DNA of 64,000 bases from Rhizophagus irregularis (taxonomy: Eukaryota > Glomeromycota > Glomeromycetes > Glomerales > Glomeraceae), in the NCBI RefSeq assembly GCF_026210795.1, contig NC_089451.1, positions 124,001-188,000 of the forward strand, in the 5' to 3' direction. Shown one piece after another: positions 6,681 to 44,365 of this stretch; position 1 is the first letter of the stretch; each line of letters opens with the position of its first letter. The notes under the pieces were generated by a model. It did not search any database, had not been told where the DNA came from, and saw only the letters and a program-made list of their open reading frames with translations. Both the position numbers and the translations under genes were made by a program.

Positions 6681-7238
6681 TATCAGTTTGAGAATTTCTA
6701 TGCAACAGTTATCCAGCGAGCTTACAGGAATTACAAGAAAAGACCTGAATCTTTGGCAAAATGAATTTGGGAGGCGGTGAGGAATGATGGTACTCCTGAT
6801 GAGAAAAAATTTTTGGGTATAAATAACGAATGGGGTTATTCTAATCCTTCAGGACAAATATATGATGAAGATGGTTATTGTTGTCCAGCAAAAAATGACT
6901 GGATAATTGAGAAGAGATACCAATTATGGATACGATTAGCTAATGTAACACACATACTTGTTTATAAAATATTATATCAGCAAGGTTATATAGTTGTTAG
7001 AGGTGCACATTAGCTTATTATGTTAAAATGGCTACAGAATCCTGAACATTATCGTATTAATAAAAAATATAACTTTGAATACTTCATCAGAATTTCAGAT
7101 TGCAAAAAATATAGGAATAAATCTGAAATACGAAACATATGTGATTTACCAACGTTAAGAACATATTATGCTCATCTAGGAAAGTATTTTACTGTGAATT
7201 TCTCAGATTTAGATGATAATTGTGAGTTTGTGCGCTGA
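6681..7238 (+). pseudogene. IQ-motif family protein remnant with two in-frame stops
   Basis: A single frame reads through from 6681 to 7238 and is interrupted only by TGA at 6762-6764 and TAG at 7011-7013. It begins with YQFENFYATVIQRAYRNYKKRP, which contains an IQ calmodulin-binding-like motif (IQRAYRNYKKR). A conserved-looking stretch rich in Trp and Gly follows (WEAVRNDGTPDEKKFLG, EDGYCCPAKNDW) and a tail ending ..SDLDDNCEFVR. The IQ-containing start and the overall style suggest one of the large lineage-specific gene families of these fungi, which is inference. The upstream exon is missing. With two stops it is most likely a pseudogene. Confidence 0.6.
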
Positions 7239-9462
7239 ATTTTCCAGATCAGCCTTGACTAAAACCCTGAATATATCCAGCCACAATGCATGTAGGTGTG
7301 TGTGACATAAATTAGCACATTTTTGATCCTCGTTAAAGTATATATGATGTAATAGGTGATACTCTGCAAATCATCTGTAACTCTGTATGATTGCTTGTGC
7401 GACAAATTAATTTCCACATATAAGAAATCGATCTCCCAAAATATTTCGAATTTTTTCCCTATCTGAATAGCATTTCTAGAGCCGATAGAAACTCTTCTAA
7501 TATAATAAGAAAAAATTAATATTGTTTTTAACGTTCTGTGACCCATACACACATTTCACATGGTTTAGTATTACTTGTATTATATATTGTTATTCTGTCA
7601 ACGATTAAAGCTGACTGAAAAACTTTAACGCTTTAACAGATTAACTGGAGTTTAACTTAATAGGAGAGTTTTAAGTTAATTACAATTAATCACGTGAATT
7701 AATGTTGGATGTTCAGTTAAAAAAAATAGGTTTTTATTAAAATAATGTAAGATTTTAGATACGATGAAAAATATAGATAATCTCTTGGTTGTGAAATTAA
7801 CTATTTTAAATTATACTACTGGGAATAATACTCTTTTCGTATAACTCAAAAACTACAATATGATTCTTAACTATCTGTGAAAATTAACTGTAAAACTTAT
7901 AAACCACTCTTTCAACTTAATCACTATTTATAATAAAATAAAAATTAAGAATATTTGATAAAATAAATAAAACAAATATAATAAATAAATAAAATAAATA
8001 AGATAAAATAAATATATCAAATAAATCGAATATAACAAATAAAATAAATAAAATAAATAAATCAAATTTATCAGATTTATCGAATAAATCGAAAAAATCA
8101 AGAAAATCAAGAAAATCAAGGGATCTACGAAATGATCTACAAAATTGATCTACATAAAATTACTGCGCCACATTTCTATTTTAACAGTATGACAATCAGA
8201 AATCATAATTATTACTAAAATTTAATTAGTGATTTGAGACAAATCGGTCCATATAATAAACAATACTGATTTACTTTTTAAAAGAGAAATTAATTAAATC
8301 CTGATGCTAATTTGATTAATAAAAACCAAGTAAATAAAACAATACCATTTGTTAATATATTTATTGCATAAAGCAAGAACTTTTTTCAGTTAATGGTAGT
8401 ATAATATATTATATATATAGTTGATCAGTATTTAATAATTACTTAGCACAAAGTACTGAGTAACTGTTGTATTTGCAATAAGCAATATGATTGGTAGAAT
8501 TACAGCTCAGCAAATTTCACTAATCATATTCTTATTGCAAATATATGTAAAGCATGATAGTATCACAGTTATAAGGTTACATATGTCAAGTAACTGTTTT
8601 ATCAGGCTTACATAATAGGTATTTTTTTATACAACTTAGTAACTGTTTGTATTAATACAAATCATCAATTAGTAAATGACTGATAAAGTATTTTATCTAT
8701 ACAATCACTTTATAACATAATTTTGGCCAAAAGTCCATTATGATCTATCTAGAGTTCTAATTATACAAAGTAATAGGAAATTTTCAAAAAAAAATTTGGA
8801 TTATACTTTTAAGAACTGGAAATTGGTGTAATTGTATTTTTATATAATATTATAAGGTATTTTCTTATAAAACCAATTGGAACTAAATAATGGTATAATT
8901 AAAGAAAAGAAATAACTATATGGAAAGTAATTATAAAGAGAATCAACTGTATATACTATTAGTATACATTAAATTGAAAAAATTTATGTAATAAATTTAA
9001 TAAATTTAATACTATTTTATAGTTGTTATATTTATTTTTCCTTAATTATAATACTAATATGAATCATTTTAATTTAGATTAGATGATTTAATAAAATTTT
9101 AATATTTTTATCTTTAATTGATGAATATAGTAGTGTTCTTTAGATTGATCCTACTAAAAGATAATATCTGAAATATTTAATCCATAATACTGCAAAATCC
9201 TTATAAGTTTTTACTTAATATTTTGCAGTAAAATTAGGAGACTATTAATTTATATGCTTTATTTCTGCTAGGATATAGATCAATTGATCATTATCTCAAA
9301 TAATAATTACTAGATATAACTTTTGCCAGTTATCAGATAGTTAAATGTGAGAAATTTTTTCTTAAAATATTTAATTCTTAAATAGAAAAAATTCTATCAT
9401 TGTGATTTCGTATTGATGTTATTCCTCAAGATAAAAAATTTTATTAAGAAAAAATGTAAGTA
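7239..9462. other. Gene-free AT-rich region
   Basis: Nothing coding is visible. It contains the A-rich simple repeat at 7928-8119 and a 22-bp imperfect inverted repeat (8470-8492 / 8522-8543, TATTTGCAATAAGCAATATG and its complement) that could be the core of an old MITE. The 3' end runs into the 3' side of the SmF gene. Confidence 0.5.
7928..8119. repeat. Low-complexity (ATAAATAA/ATCAA) simple repeat
   Basis: Degenerate run of AAATAAATAAG, then ATCAAATTTATC, then GAAAATCAA units. The long open frame on the minus strand (Leu/Tyr/Ile-only peptide) is an artefact of this composition. Confidence 0.8.
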
Positions 9463-34925: not shown

Positions 34926-36479
34926 AAATTCTCAGCTTTCAAATGAATGTAAAATGATGACGTTAGCATATCTCCAGGAATAATAATGCACGATTTTGTC
35001 ACCTGCATAAAGTCCGATCTGAAAATTTTATTTCTTACCAAAAAATGCTTTCATAAGAGAATCCCAAATTCTTTTACTTTATTTAAAAGATTTTATTTGC
35101 AATTTAAGGATTTTAGTAGAATAAATCTAATAAAATAATTTTAAAAGATAAAAAACAAATATATAATTAGTTATTTTGAAAAAAAAAGAATATCTTATTA
35201 TTCATTTTACAACTATTTTACATCATAATTATTTTTTATTTGCATGTATTTTTTACAAAGAAAAAACAATAAATTAAAGCTAAAAATTATGAAAAAATAT
35301 GTCTTATCTATGTATATAAAATATTAAGTTTTTTCTTTTACTTACCACTTAAAAATAACTGCTATATTTGCTTATAAACTTTTTTGTCATATTTAATAAA
35401 AGTGAATAGAAAAATGATGGAAAAGTGATGGGAGTGATGGGGAAAAAGAAGTGGTTATTACCGTTATTTTTGAATATTGATTAAAAAAATTTTTTTTATT
35501 TTTTATTAAATCTGAGTTACGTAAATATGTAACACATATTTAATTTAGATTTGTGTAATGTTAATCTTACTAAAATATTAAATTTTTATAAAAATCTTAA
35601 TTTAGACTAATTCCAAAAATCGGCACATATGTACTATAAATAGACTTGCGTTAGTTATGTAATTTTATTTTTTAATTAAAAAAAGAAATTAATTTTTTTT
35701 TAGGAATAATCCTGATAGATTTTTTGAACTTTTTGGTAAGTGAAAAAAAGGTTCATTTTTAAGAAACAATGTTAATTTCATTTTTTTATTAATATAAAAC
35801 TTAATTTTTATTTTATTTTTATTTACAGTTAGAATTCTGAATGGGTCAAGTCAGGTCAGGTAAATTGATAAACCTAACCTGAAATTTTTTTTCAGGTCAG
35901 GTCAGGTTAAATCATATCAGGTTATCTATTTAACCTGACTTGAACTAAAACCTGAAAATTTTCAGAATTTATATTAAAAATATCAAAAAAAATGGTGCAA
36001 CTTTTTATATTAAAATTATATAAAAAAGTGAATTTTGATACCGCAATTTACTTTTTATATAAAATTGACATAAAAAAGTGAATTCTGATACCGCAATTCA
36101 CTTTTTATATATAAAATCAATATAAAAAAGTGAATTCTTATATTGCAATTCACTTCATTGGGAAATTTTTTAAGATGCAGAACTGCAAAGATCTGTAAAA
36201 TTAGCAGATCTCCGCATTTTTTTTGTGAATTTATGTGGAAGTCTGCGATTTTGCAGATTTTCACTTTTTATTTTTTACAAAGTTATGCAATAATCTGCAA
36301 TTTTGCATGTTTCCGATTTTTTATGTATGCATTTCTGCAGAAAATCTGCGATTTTGCAGCTTTCTGCTTTTTTTTATGTCAGAATATCAATTTGATTTGC
36401 AATTTTATCACACAATTAACTTTTAACACTTTTAACACTTAAACTTTTAAACTTTGATAAAAACTTGATTTATTACCTA

Positions 36480-36800
36480 AATAATTTTTTTATAACACTC
36501 TTTAAAGAAAAAATTTTACAAGACTTCAAGAAATAATTTTTCACATATTTTAAATTTAAAACTTCAAAGAAAAATATAACACTTTAAAGAAAAAATTTTA
36601 CAAGACTTTAAAGAAATAATTTTTTCTACAACACTTTTTAAAATTTACAAGACTTTAAAGAAAAAATAATTTTTCTACACTTTTTACTAAAGAAAAAACT
36701 TTACAAAATAACTTTTTCTACTACCCTTCAAAGAAAAAATTTTATGACTTTAAATAAATAATTTTTTCCATAATACTTTTTAAAGAAATAATCTGTTAAA
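36480..36800. repeat. Degenerate roughly 60-bp tandem repeat
   Basis: Units of AACACTTTAAAGAAAAAATT, then TTACAAGACTTTAAAGAAAT and a T-rich tail recur about five times with many changes, just before the exon-module array. Confidence 0.65.
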
Positions 36801-38563
36801 GATTTCAAAGAAAAAAAATTTTTATTATTAAGCTTTGAAGCTTGTCAGAGAAATTTTTTTTTTTAAAAAAAAATTTATTTATGAGGTTCGGGCAAATTCG
36901 TCTAATATTCAGCATATAATCTGCAACATGCATATTGGACTAAAAAGACATCAGATTTCATTATCTCCTACTTTCATAAAAAACATTTTACTTCGTAAGC
37001 AGAAGTACTCCATTTCGAAGGTATTTATTCCTTCAAATTTTTTTTATTAATATTATTTAACAAATATTAGCAAACGTTCGTTTTATTAGTCTAGAACACC
37101 AAAGGTATGTTCTGGACTCTCCATTTTTGAAGGTAACCTTCAAAATTTGTATTTTTCTTTTTGTTTCAAGTTCAGGACTCCCATTTCGAAAGTTACCTTC
37201 GAAAAAAATGTTATTCTTATTAATTTTATTAACGAACATTGTTAACGTTTGTTTATTAAGTTCTGAATGCCAAAGTACAGCTTTGGACTTTATTTTGAAA
37301 GTTGGAGTTGAAACTTCGGTAAATATTTTTATTTTTTAGGTCCTGAACGCCGAAGTACGGCTCTGGACTTCATTTTCGAAGGTAAAAAACCTTAAAAATT
37401 TTTTTTATATTTAATTTTAACAAACGTCACTAACATTCATTTTTCATGTTTTTAGGTCCTGAGTGCCAAAGAACGGCTCCAGACATTTATTTCGAAGGTA
37501 AAGTTTACCTTCAAAATATTTTTTTTAATTTTATTTCAACGAACGTTAATTAACATTCATTTTTACGTTTTATAGGTCCTGGACGCCAAAGAATGGCTCC
37601 GGACATTTATTTCAAAGGTAAAGTTTACCTTCAAAATATTTTTTTTAATTTTATTTCAACGAACGTTACAAACGTTCGTTTCTATTATTTTTTAGGTCCT
37701 GGACACCAAAGTACAGCTCCAGATGTTTATTTCAAAAGTAAAGTTTACCTTCGAAATATTTTTTTAATTTTATTTTAACGAACGTTGCAAACGTTCGTTC
37801 TATTATTTTTTAGGTCCTGGATGCCGAAGAATGGCTCTGAACTCTTATTTCGAAGGTAAAAATCTTCGAAATAGTTTTTTTTTTATATTTTAACTTTAAC
37901 GAACGTTAATTATGTTCGTTTTTGTATTTTATAGGTTCTGACACCAAAAAATAGCTCTAGACTCTTATTTCGAAGGGAAAAATCTTCGAAATATTTTTTT
38001 ATATTATTATTTCAACGAACGTTAATTAACGTTCATTTTTATATTTTATAAGTTCTGGACACTGAAGAATGGCTCCGGACTCTTATTTCGAAGATAAATC
38101 TTCAAATTTTTTTTTTTATTTATATTTTAGCAAATGTTACAAAATGTTCGTTATTTTTTTTTAGGTCCAGAACGCTAAAGTTATGTTCTGAACCCATTTG
38201 AAAGTTCTATTTGAAGGTAAAACTTTCAAATTATTTCTTTTAATTAATTTATTAACAAAACATTTATAACGTTTCGTTTTTTTTTTCAGGTAAAGAAAGC
38301 TGAAACAAGTTCTGAACTTCCATATCAAAGGTAAAACAAACCTTCAAAAAATTAATTTTTTTTTAATTAATTTATTGATGAAACGTTTCTAACATTTCGT
38401 CTCTTTTTTTCTAGGCAAGGGAATCTGAAACAAGTTCTGGACTTTCATATTGAAGGTAAAATCTTTGAAAAAAATTAACTTTTTTAATATTTTTATTTAG
38501 CAAAACATTAACTAACATTCCATCTTTTTTTTTAGGCAAGGGAATTTGAAACTGAGTTCCAGA

Positions 38564-39481
38564 TAAAGATGGTCATCGGTCCTAGAAGACCGCGGTCCTA
38601 CGGTCCTACACCATAAAAAGACGGACCAGTCCGTCTTAGTGTAGGACCGCGGTCTTTCGGTCCTGTATCACATATAATAAGACCGTCGGTCTTTTTAAGG
38701 ACCGCAGTCTTTTTTCTTTTTTTTGCAAATAAAAAAAGATTTTCTTCCCTAACTTTATTAGGAATAGCCTTGTTTTATAAATGAACACTAATTGGGATGA
38801 TTTTTAATATAAATTTTTTTTTTTACAATTCACCTGGATATCATCACAACGTCATGCAAAATTTAAAGCTTTGAGAAAAAATACTTCAAAACGCAATATC
38901 TCGCTATTCAGTGATTATAAAAGGATAATTTTACCACCATTCGAATCGTCTCGCTGCGGCGCGTCGAATGGTATCAAAATCATGATTTTAGAATCGATAA
39001 AAAAAAATTACGTCGGCAAAACTATTTGATAATAAATTCAATAATTACTGACTATCTATCGATCCTAGAAACATGATTTAGTCACCATTCGACGCGTCTC
39101 ATTGAGACGATTCGAATGGTGATGGTTTCATCCTTTTATGATTACTGGATGACGAGATATTCCGCTTAAACGCTTTTTTTGGAGTTTTGGAGTTTCAGCG
39201 TTTTGACAAGCAACTCTACAAGTGGGAAGAGTGATTGTCATTATTTATTGGTTTGGAAATGGCTGGTCTTTATATTATTTTATGAAGACCTTTGTCAGAT
39301 TAATAGGTTTATTCAATATAAAAATCATTTATTATATGAAGACCGGTATGAGGACTGGTCGGTCCTCAGGACCGGTCCTACTGCGCCACAAAAAAATGCA
39401 AGACCGCGGTCTGGTCCTACAAGTTCTAGGACCGACCGGTCCAGAACCGAGTATGACCGGTAGGACCGATGACCATCCTTA
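38564..39481. mobile_element. hAT-like non-autonomous element (918 bp) inserted in an exon module
   Basis: Perfect 8-bp target duplication GTTCCAGA (38556-38563 and 39482-39489) and inverted ends TAAAGATGGTCATCGGTCCT / complement of TAAGGATGGTCATCGGTCCT. The ends continue as runs of GGTCCT/AGGACC, CCGCGGTC and ACCGGTC motifs. An 8-bp duplication with TA-ended, short TIRs fits the hAT superfamily. There is no transposase. Removing the element and one duplication restores a 42-nt module (38536-38563 joined to 39490-39503). Confidence 0.85.
38901..39165. mobile_element. Foldback nested in the hAT-like element
   Basis: Arms AATATCTCG..AGTGATTATAAAAGGAT (from about 38901) and its complement ending near 39162. 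Next to the loop each arm has the CCATTCGAATCGTCTC..GACG..TCGAATGG hairpin, the same theme as the foldback at 32913-33327. Confidence 0.7.
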
Positions 39482-41090
39482 GTTCCAGACTCCCATATCG
39501 AAGGTAAGATCCTTCAAAAAAATTAATTTTTTTTAATATTTTTATTTAGCGAAACGTTAACAAACGTTTCATCTTTTTTTTTTAGGCAAAGCCCGCAAGA
39601 AAATCCGAAAACTAGTTCTGGACTCCCATATCAAAGGTAAAACCTTCAAAATTTTTTTTTCTTTTTTTATTTATTGATGAACGTAACTAACGTTCGTATT
39701 TCCTTTTTTTTAGATAAAGAAAGCTGAAAACTCAGATTCCCATACGAAGGTTTTCCTATACGAAAGTAAAACTTTTGTAAAAAAAAATTTTTTTTATTTA
39801 ATTTATTGACGAACGTTAACTAATGTTTGTATTACTTTTTTTTTTAGGCAAGGGAATCCGAAAACGAATTCTGGGCTCCCATATCAAAGGTAAAACCTTT
39901 AAAATTTTTTTTTCTTTTTTATTTAAATGAACGTTAACTAACGTTCGTATTTTATTTTTTTAGGTAAAGGAAGCCGAAAACGAGTTCGGTCTCCCATATC
40001 GAAGGTGAAACCTTCAAAAAAAAAATTTTTTTAATAATTTTACTTAACAAAACGTTTTCTAACGTTCATTTTTGTATTTTGTAAGAACATGGCTCTCTGA
40101 ACGCTCCTGAACAGAATTTTGAAGGTAACCTTTGAAATTCTGTTTTTTTTGTTTTTATTTAAATGAAACGTTAGCTAACGTTTCATTTTTCTTTTTTTTT
40201 GTAGGTTTTGGTACTTCAAGGTTCCCAAAACGGGTACATGGTAAGTTTCGCAACTCTCGTTATGAAACTTTAAAATTTATTTTTTTTTCAAAGAATGTTT
40301 CTAACGTTCTTTATCTATTTTTTTGTAGGTTCCAGTACTCAATATTCCCGAAACTTTAACATGGTAAGTTTCGCAAATGTTGCAATGTCGCGAAACTTGA
40401 ATTTGAATTTTTTTGGTTTTTTTTATTAAGAATATTATACTAACGTTCTTTAATATTTTTTTTGCAGGTTCGGTATTCCAAAGGTTCCAAAAAGCTAAAA
40501 GATAAGTTTTGCAATGTTTCGTTACGAAACTTAATTTGATGACCAATTAATTCATTTTTGTTGCTTTTTTTTATTTTTATAAAAGAACGTTTCTAATGTT
40601 CTTTTTTTTTTATATAGGGATGCTTAGGCTTCTTTAGACGAACCAGACTTGGAGATTTTTTCAGGATTTCGAAGGTATTTACCTTATTTACCTTCAAAAT
40701 TAATTTTTTTTTAATATTTAACAAAACGTTTACTAACGTTTCGTTTGTCTTTTCTTTTTACTTTTTGCAGGTTTACGGCTTCTGGATGGAATTTTGAAGG
40801 TAAAATTCCTTCAAAATTCTTTCATGTTTTTTAATTTGCAAAACGTTTACTAACGTTTCAGTTGTTTTTTTCTGTAGGGGTTTTTTTTCTGACTCCTAGA
40901 CGAAAGAATTAAGGTATATCTTCAAAATTCTTTATAATTTTTTTTTTATTCTTTTTTAACGAACGTTCTACTAACGTTCATTTTTCTTTATTTTTTAGAT
41001 CCTGAGATTTCATGTTAAACATTTCAAAAGTAATAACTTCGAAATGATTTTCTTATTTCTAACAAACATCTCCAATTTTCTATTTTATTT

Positions 41091-41141
41091 GTTGTTTGTT
41101 GGAATCGAACCAACTGGAATAATGTCCAAACCATTAACAAC
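41091..41141 (-). pseudogene. tRNA-like relic lacking a D arm
   Basis: On the minus strand, GTTGTTA (7 nt) can pair at 6 of 7 positions with the 3' AAACAAC. A perfect T arm (GTTGG-TTCGATT-CCAAC) precedes it, and a short TGGA-CATTAT-TCCA hairpin sits where the anticodon arm would be. There is no D arm and no credible anticodon, so this is a tRNA-derived fossil at best. Confidence 0.4.
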
Positions 41142-41575
41142 ATGTAAATTACAGTAGAACTTTAACTATTAGTACATTAATAAAATAGTGTAGCAAAGTG
41201 ATAAATTTGTAATGCGTTTAATTAATAAATTGATGTTAGATAATACTAAAATAAATAACAATCAAAATTTGTACAATTTATTATTCTGATAATTTTCACA
41301 GATTTTTATTTTGTAAAATATGCGCAGAATTTAATAACAAAAATCTGCGCAGAACTTTGTTATTTATAAATCTGCGCAGTTTTTTATTGGATTTTTCTTC
41401 TGATGTTTTGCACCAGGGTATAAGATCTGCGCAGAAATAATTTCTGAAAATCTGTGCAAATCTGCTTTCTAAAAAATTTCCCGATGTTTTATTATATAAA
41501 AACAATATAAAAAGTTAATTATAATACCATAACTCACTTATTATATAAAATCATAGTTTTAGATCAACAGGTCAT

Positions 41576-41854
41576 CACTGGTAAAAAAATGGTCTATCCT
41601 ACACATATCCTACACATATTTTACATATATTGGGTACTCAAAATGTAGAAAATCATACACAAATAATACACATATCATACACATATCGGGTACTTATATA
41701 TATAGTATACTTATCAGGTACCTGATATATGTATGATATATATATTAGTACCCGATATGTGTATGATATGTGTATTATTTGTATATGATTTTCTACATTT
41801 TAAGTACCCAATATGTGTAAGATATGTGTAGGATAAATCATTTTTTTACCAGTG
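41576..41854. mobile_element. CACTA-like foldback MITE (279 bp)
   Basis: Ends CACTGGTAAAAAAATG and exact complement CATTTTTTTACCAGTG, with 3-bp duplication CAT (41573-41575, 41855-41857). It is almost fully palindromic, with repeated ACACATATC / GGGTACT motifs. CACTG ends plus a 3-bp duplication fit the CACTA superfamily. The related sequence at about 63815-63830 lacks it, which provides an empty site. Confidence 0.8.
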
Positions 41855-42929: not shown

Positions 42930-43860
42930 ACTAACTGTTTAACTCCTAAAGTTTTATATTTTTTATTTAATAACTTTAGAGTGTAATTTCACTACTTTAG
43001 TCAAATGAAATCAATTTCTTTTATTAATTAAAAGTTGTTCAACAGAGCCAAAACTACTTGTATATTATTTTTTATAAGTGTAGGTATAATACATATAAAA
43101 AAACCCATATTTTTCATAATGGTACTAACTTTCAAAATTGTTTTTTCATTTATTAACTTCAGAGCGTAATTTTACTACTTTAGTCAAATGAAATCGACTT
43201 TCTAAATTAATTGAAAATTGTTCAGCAAGGTCGAAACTACGTGTATATTAATTTTCATGGGTGTAGGTATAATATATATGGAGAAACCAACATTTTTCAT
43301 AATGGTACTAACTTTCGAATTTTTTTTTTTCTGTTTACTAACTTTAGAGCGTAATTTCATCACTTTAGTCAAATGAAATCGACTTTTTAAATTAATTGAA
43401 AATTGTTCAGCAAGGTCGAAACTATACTACTTGTATATTAATTTTCATGGGTGTAGATATAATACATATGGAGAAATCTACATTTTTCATAACGGTACTA
43501 ACTTTCAAATTTTTTTTTTCTGTTTATTAACTTCAGCGCGTAATTTCACCACTTTAGTCAAATGAAATCGACTTTCTAACTTAATTGAAAATTGTTCAGC
43601 AAGGTCGAAACTACTTGTATATTAATTCTCATGGGTGTAGGTATAATATATATGGAGAATTCTACATTTTTCATAAGTCATAACGGTACTAACTTTCAAA
43701 TTTTTCTTTTTTCCATTTACTAACTTTAGAGCGTAATTTTACCACTTTAGTCAAATGAAATTTACTTACTTTATTAATTGAAAGTTGTTTAGCAATATAA
43801 AATCTACTTAATATTGTAGGATTTATTCATTTTTTATAATAATACTAACTTATAAATTAT
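42930..43860. repeat. Satellite: five tandem units of about 185-190 bp
   Basis: See the enclosing element. Inner units are closely similar and the outermost two are more diverged, as expected for unequal exchange. Confidence 0.8.
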
Positions 43861-44285: not shown

Positions 44286-44365
44286 GCTCAGTTAGTTCAA
44301 TCGGTAGAATACTTGATAATATACTTTTTATCATAGAGATGCAGGTTCGATTTCTGCACTGGGTC
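44286..44365 (+). pseudogene. tRNA-like sequence in the left end of the MULE
   Basis: A 7-bp acceptor stem (GCTCAGT with ACTGGGT, including G-U pairs), a D arm (GTTCAATCGGTAGAAT) and a T arm (GCAGG-TTCGATT-TCTGC) are present with a discriminator C. The anticodon region is a non-standard TGATAA..TTATCA hairpin, so a charged tRNA is unlikely. A-box and B-box-like promoter blocks are retained. Confidence 0.6.

Follow-up and report, generated by a model that had tools for sequence, protein, structure and literature searches.

A serial array of intron-like units in the interior of a dispersed terminal-inverted-repeat transposon of Rhizophagus irregularis

What is the long tandem array of short, GC-richer modules, set between splice-site-like signals, in a 64,000-nt stretch of the Rhizophagus irregularis genome (contig C23, positions 124001-188000; hereafter the window), and what carries it? 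We found that the array is the interior of a dispersed DNA transposon with terminal inverted repeats (TIRs). We think it rather probable that a non-autonomous Plavaka-type transposon here carries introns that were duplicated in series and are probably splice-competent, a reading in which we infer splicing from sequence signals. The window is AT-rich (20-37% GC per 2 kb). The genome searched comprised 146,748,485 bases in 32 contigs, and as the searches scored about 40 candidates each, the copy counts given here are lower bounds.

The array and the parts of it on which the argument turns are the following:
37090..41029, + strand: array of about 26 intron-like/exon-like units
37340..37855, + strand: run of five 42-nt modules with a period of about 120 nt, the fifth with a TGA in phase 0
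37488..37518, unstranded: example of a palindrome over a 5' splice-site-like GT, TATTTCGAAGGTAAA g TTTACCTTCAAAATA
37658..37680, unstranded: perfect second palindrome, AACGAACGTT-ACA-AACGTTCGTT (hairpin at the branch-point position)
37777..37799, unstranded: second perfect copy, AACGAACGTT-GCA-AACGTTCGTT

In most units a T-rich or pyrimidine tract with YAG is followed by a short GC-richer 'exon' and by a GT near or inside a palindrome; after the GT come a T-rich spacer and then a second palindrome, usually with a CTAAC-like motif. Tandem Repeats Finder reported a period of 120 with 6.8 copies and 79% matches at 37325-38127. A sequence-only reading of this stretch had described about 27 modules, many of exactly 42 nt in phase 0, lying between polypyrimidine-AG and a GT donor, with a perfect second palindrome in each spacer. 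The tandem array is real, with units of about 120 nt that mostly consist of pyrimidine tract plus AG, module and GT, and by reading segmentation we counted 26 modules, of which 22 are preceded by TAG or CAG and four by AAG, and 20 end in GT[AG]. The 42-nt length needs correcting, since only six of the 26 measure exactly 42 nt (37340, 37456, 37576, 37696, 37814, 39848), while the remaining measurable ones range from 29 to 57 nt and do not preserve the frame. The second palindrome is likewise present, but AACGAACGTT-NNN-AACGTTCGTT is perfect only twice in the window (37658, 37777) and at three other places in the genome, each scored on both strands; the remaining units of the window have an imperfect version of it or one with different arms. 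That reading made no mention of a 917-bp insertion that splits one module, and it missed both the TIR transposon around the array and the Plavaka-encoding partner described below.

The borders of the element were obtained from all-vs-all BLAST homology, its ends and its flanks:
36156..41486, + strand (orientation from splice-like signals): whole transposon copy, 5331 bp, with TT/TT flanks
36156..36171, + strand: left TIR, CATTGGGAAATTTTTT, 16 bp
41471..41486, - strand: right TIR, AAAAAATTTCCCGATG

With an 803-bp piece of the array, of whose 188 candidates 40 were scored, at least 171 matches spread over many contigs were obtained, and probes from the two ends gave at least 42 and 45 matches, 40 of them full-size in each case; the window copy itself lies outside these 40 scored end-probe matches. 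End-probe matches on the same strand form at least 26 pairs spaced 3.3-9.8 kb and one further pair at 10.3 kb, and 18 of the 26 were fetched. When 12 fetched regions and the window were compared, the left homology border was common to 12 of the 13 (L009 lacks it) and the right one also to 12 (L013 lacks it), and the inverted ends were CATCGGGAAATTTTTT / AAAAAATTTCCCGATG or near variants. CATCGGGAAATTTTTT, the commonest left-TIR form among the copies printed, occurs exactly 101 times in the genome and its reversed control not at all; the window carries CATTGGGAAATTTTTT in its place. Target-site duplications were scored by a script on 20 copies, in 18 of which both ends were recognised. Thirteen of the 18 show a duplication of at least 2 bp (12 with 2 bp, one with 4), and the flanks of the other five are weaker, with 1 bp in two copies and no duplication in three. 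The two copies that missed the pattern, L014 and L015, have the flanks ta/ta and tt/tt by eye.

The array elements examined yielded no transposase, and three regions with paired ends 6.1-9.8 kb apart (L019-L021) contain no ORF longer than 93 aa with ATG, GTG or TTG starts. A possible source of the enzyme came from three convergent TIR pairs spaced 6.4-6.5 kb (C3:1643437, C16:130379, C17:517465), which are absent among the matches listed for the array-piece or end probes. One of them, a 6.47-kb element at C16:130379-136850 (L050), has TIRs identical to those of array elements and aa/aa flanks, and encodes the Plavaka transposase domain PF18759 (E 1.2e-14, 54.7 bits vs a cut-off of 26.3), together with a C2H2-like N-terminal piece that scores under its cut-off. 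In BLAST comparisons with the array copy L018, the window piece and L035, the matches were confined to the terminal ~320 bp of this element, and the comparison with L048 gave no match. Because an element with the same ends encodes PF18759, the window copy is best filed as a non-autonomous Plavaka-type (CACTA/EnSpm-related) transposon. As far as the available part of PMC12730594 describes it, PlavakaB has 2-3 bp target-site duplications and CATCA..TGATG termini. The inverted CATC(A)..(T)GATG pattern is found in CATCGGGAAATTTTTT..AAAAAATTTCCCGATG, and the mostly 2-bp duplications and the identical-ended relative with PF18759 add to the likeness. The array elements differ from Plavaka in consisting mostly of the intron-like array, and in the fifth base of the end, which is mostly CATCG (a few copies have CATCA, and the one in the window has CATTG) as against CATCA in PlavakaB. 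In the part of PMC11075540 that we could use, Plavaka elements are described as prevalent in several R. irregularis strains.

The splice-like signals follow a consistent order and keep to one strand. Units were defined by the second palindrome alone and the first AG within 40 nt was scored. This covered the window, L007-L010, L012 and L015-L018 (nine of the 22 element loci collected by that point), nine other arrays and five control arrays (L034, L047 and L049 were left out). In the 19 exon arrays, 139 of 152 units had as this first AG a YAG preceded by a pyrimidine-rich tract. The figure was 39 of 43 in the nine arrays outside the main-family copies, and 5 of 27 in the five exon-less arrays with the same hairpin; as copies share ancestry, these counts are not independent. 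Runs of complete units, 13-24 each, lie on the sense strand in all 23 loci examined. Antisense units numbered zero in 21 of these loci, two in L012 and seven in L019, and reversed-sequence controls gave 0-4 units. CTAAC is the fungal branch-point consensus, and 122 of 169 distinct hairpins are centred on CTAAC (77 cases), CTAAT or TTAAC. The array introns have a median length of 79 nt (interquartile range 75-82, n=46), and the four host actin-type introns that were fully read measure 69-83 nt, a fifth having been read only in part. GC content is 0.455 in exons and 0.212 in the first 60 intron bases. The exons themselves vary widely: the median pairwise similarity among 72 exon-cluster representatives is 0.51, and for 74 exons that lie outside the main family the best similarity to it has a median of 0.75, both being matching-letters ratios and not alignment identities. 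Introner-like elements are characterised by similar introns of spliceosomal type that have GT, a branch point and YAG, and here these features are present as sequence signals.

Both palindromes keep their complementarity across sequence change, as a trend over units and not in every unit. At the three pairs just outside the search core of 169 branch-point hairpins, Watson-Crick pairing reached 69, 61 and 66% vs 44, 27 and 39% for shuffled partners (sd about 3), with different base pairs in use (A-T 58 and G-C 54 at the first outer pair; C-G 41, G-C 33 and A-T 22 at the second); further out, at the fourth and fifth pairs, the values came close to those of shuffling (53 and 36% vs 49 and 35%). 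At the donor, exon end and intron start had a complementarity of 7.36 vs 5.98 for shuffled partners (sd 0.17), and the donor region had a mean fold z of -2.16 against dinucleotide shuffles, with 32 of 72 exon clusters below -2. Whole introns had a mean fold z of -1.61 (17 of 46 below -2), and four introns of the window gave -5.41, -2.77, -3.17 and -2.40. Palindromy is well supported, and the internal symmetry or stable structure known from introners is therefore found here too.

The array of the window belongs to a wider set. The hairpin pattern CGAACGTTNNCTAACGTTCG, with at most one mismatch, has at least 94 forward and 83 reverse matches in the genome and none in the reversed control, and we read by eye 16 of these places outside the copies already collected, six and then ten more. 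Among the first six, L031-L034 are exon arrays and L029 and L030 mainly exon-less. The next ten comprise seven with exon-type units (L040, L042, L044, L045, L046, L048 and the short L047), two that are exon-less (L039, L041) and an isolated hairpin (L043). The exon-less places (L029, L030, L039, L041 and L035:3500-4150) consist mainly of AACGTT..AACGTT-type hairpins and T-rich spacers with few YAG, and may have given rise to the intron-like arrays or be derived from them. Another locus, L049 (C17, minus strand), opens with ~750 bases in which a distinct ~98-bp cassette, GTATCGGTTGGGACCTTTGGGCGGAATA/GTAAGTTTCG.., is repeated about eight times; these copies continue an array and keep GTAAGT and TTTTGTAG. 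Near a diverged array in L036, two ORFs on the minus strand (254-1492 and 7016-8969) look by eye like a tyrosine recombinase (Crypton-like) and a Sel1-repeat/kinase-like protein, and coding-looking exons were seen nearby, also by eye only. A kinase-like exon that seemed to end the C17 array L046 turned out to be another tandem module.

Could the modules be coding? The sequence-only reading had offered, as one of two options, a gene of serially duplicated micro-exons, which might encode, for example, a repeat-rich secreted effector in or captured by the element, with 14-residue modules such as VLDAKEWLRTFISK. Such a gene would account for the phase-0 modules of 42 nt that follow one another in some copies, for exons richer in GC than the introns, and for open stretches of 166 aa (L009) and 158 aa (L010). 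These longest stretches are, however, the expanded 42-nt repeat itself, and for the 166-aa peptide none of the 25 Pfam matches listed, out of 28, was over the cut-off. Exon lengths show no preference for a frame, the modal length modulo 3 being 0, 1 and 2 in 23, 25 and 24 of the 72 exon clusters (253 exons, 20 arrays), and each of the three sister copies L016-L018 has modules of 40, 41 and 44 nt, while 43 and 32 nt are found in two of them. In-silico spliced models, translated for five of the 13 modelled copies, have stops in every frame. Divergence outside CpG contexts in five copy pairs was 0.023/0.017, 0.036/0.015, 0.050/0.021, 0.049/0.040 and 0.097/0.080 (exon/intron); as exons diverge at least as much as introns, there is no sign of protein constraint. 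The 'exons' thus look non-coding, and a protein-coding micro-exon gene, against which frame, stops and divergence all speak, seems to us scarcely credible. The other option of that reading, an intron-plus-exon cassette resembling introner-like elements, comes close to the structure of the arrays.

Chief among the rival readings is a palindromic minisatellite within the transposon that undergoes no splicing today. Its signals would be inherited from one ancestral intron and kept alike by tandem homogenisation, and its palindromes would be kept up at the DNA level, for example by quasi-palindrome correction. We consider this unlikely, though several observations favour it or weigh against splice-competent introns. 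On the sense strand of the branch-point hairpins A.C mismatches outnumber G.U (179 vs 125, 20 arrays), and the donor hairpins show no clear difference (22 A.C vs 27 G.U); without an excess of G.U, there is no specific support for RNA pairing on the sense strand, and we do not claim it. The A.C excess is seen although C>T and G>A balance each other in three exon clusters, and it would agree with pairing on the opposite strand or with common ancestry. CTAAC-like centres also occur in 21 of 27 hairpins of the exon-less arrays, so that this motif alone is not specific to splicing units. Homogenised runs exist (the 120-nt run of the window; L009), and individual close copies look neutral in the five pairs compared. 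Furthermore, the native introns available for comparison are few (five, one of them partial), and none of the five has a donor hairpin, nor does any show CTAAC in the stretch checked; palindromes over donor and branch point could also hinder splicing. Exon folding is unremarkable, with a mean z of -0.15 over 72 exon types, and the idea of exon hairpins, convincing by eye in GTCC..GGAC and GGGA..TCCC, was therefore dropped. What a minisatellite leaves unexplained is that YAG persists across unit types and across arrays with widely differing exons, whereas exon-less arrays mostly lack it: homogenisation within an array does not account for conservation between arrays. It could also be that the arrays act as a nursery, from which single units leave to become new introns of host genes. 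The components of most units are those of a symmetric intron of the kind found in fungal introner-like elements, as described in part of PMC8469720, and their introns fall into the same length class as the host introns read. Yet host-gene context was recognised by eye in none of the ten further hairpin places (0.7-1.2 kb each), a small, non-random sample in which no gene search was made, and we regard such a nursery as improbable.

In the reading that we prefer, splice-competent introns in a Plavaka-type transposon, the Plavaka transposase of same-ended relatives would move the element in trans. Its interior would have arisen from a single cassette, duplicated in series, that joins a spliceosomal-type intron of about 79 nt to a short non-coding exon. 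The introns would have their donor, a CTAAC-like branch point, a pyrimidine tract and YAG all on the same strand, with one palindrome around the donor and another around the branch point. Arrays would grow and shrink through tandem duplication of whole cassettes, which is supported by the differing unit numbers and by the separate 120-bp and ~98-bp expansions. Since splice signals persist across arrays whose exons have diverged widely, we infer that the element lineage has been selected to stay spliceable when transcribed, be it in a transcript of the element or by read-through; the likely gain would be the removal of most of the inserted DNA from RNA. As a more tentative extension, for which we see a possible but limited case, there may be a whole class of transposon-borne intron arrays in this fungus, in which the element hides by piecewise splicing and may serve as a reservoir of new introns.

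Several known systems share part of this picture. Micro-exon genes, known from the MEGs of Schistosoma and also from plants, have many consecutive exons under ~50 nt, whereas the arrays described here lie in a transposon and lack frame symmetry or a long ORF. In the DNA-transposon introners of Gozashti et al. 2022, one element reportedly gives one intron, while here a single element holds 13-24 or more intron-like units. Those introners have in common with our element the link between DNA transposition, TIRs and introns; as far as PMC9860276 was available, it describes transposon-derived introners and names Pezizomycotina and ascomycetes among fungi, and neither Rhizophagus nor Glomer appears as a term in its main text. 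Internally symmetrical introns, and fungal introner-like elements that are symmetric or have inverted repeats, are described in the part of PMC8469720 that we could use. These introner-like elements and symmetrical (stw)introns of Capnodiales and Hypoxylaceae are likewise short, multiplying spliceosomal introns with internal inverted symmetry, but theirs stand in host genes at new positions, whereas here tandem units with two separate hairpins lie in a TIR transposon. SP7-like effectors of R. irregularis are repeat-bearing genes dispersed in the same species, which have an ORF and a signal peptide and in which a conserved intron precedes the first repeat (PMC11333574, in part); we set this candidate aside, as the array has no continuous ORF in the five spliced models. 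In the literature searched, outside which most subscription papers lay, we recognised no description of intron arrays inside a transposon.

Further features lie within the element:
36500..36800, unstranded: AT-rich tandem repeat left of the array, with a period of 46 at 36598-36784
38564..39480, unstranded: nested insertion of 917 bp with AAGGATGGTCATCGGTCCTA-like inverted ends, splitting one module
41090..41142, unstranded: cloverleaf-like three-stem motif 3' of the array, which folds on either strand

Other copies (e.g. L018, L019) have a different tandem repeat, of about 105 nt, to the left of the main array. The nested insertion is flanked by a 9-bp duplication, AGTTCCAGA (38555-38563 and 39481-39489), which we take to suggest a Mutator-like non-autonomous element. 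The cloverleaf-like motif has 33 genomic matches and none in the reversed control, and is common to the array ends of the window, L009, L018, L048 and L049. Its folding was not significant (z -1.15/-1.44) and no Rfam match exceeded the gathering score, so we abandoned a tRNA-like reading. On the minus strand it contains the T-arm-like sequence GGTTCGATTCC, which to our mind resembles a Pol III B-box. Beyond the element, a small palindromic repeat, CACTGGTAAAAAAATG..CATTTTTTTACCAGTG, adjoins its right side at ~41575-41854, and a stretch 89% identical to it lies inside the array copy L008 (4750-5006). Further on are a tandem array of a ~183-bp unit (4.5 copies, 42952-43809) and a tRNA gene on the + strand (44286-44365; Rfam tRNA 38.6 bits) with an unusual ARAGORN anticodon call, 'tact'.

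According to the part of PMC11075540 available, two-thirds of the transposable elements of R. irregularis are unclassified, and the elements described here could give a name to part of this large repeat fraction. If the units are spliced, a single transposon would hold some two dozen introns under selection at the level of the element, and would offer a natural test bed for intron multiplication, for the effects of hairpins at donor and branch point, and for the ways in which DNA transposons limit the harm that they do. If they are not, strand-specific splice signals that persist in a satellite would themselves need an explanation.

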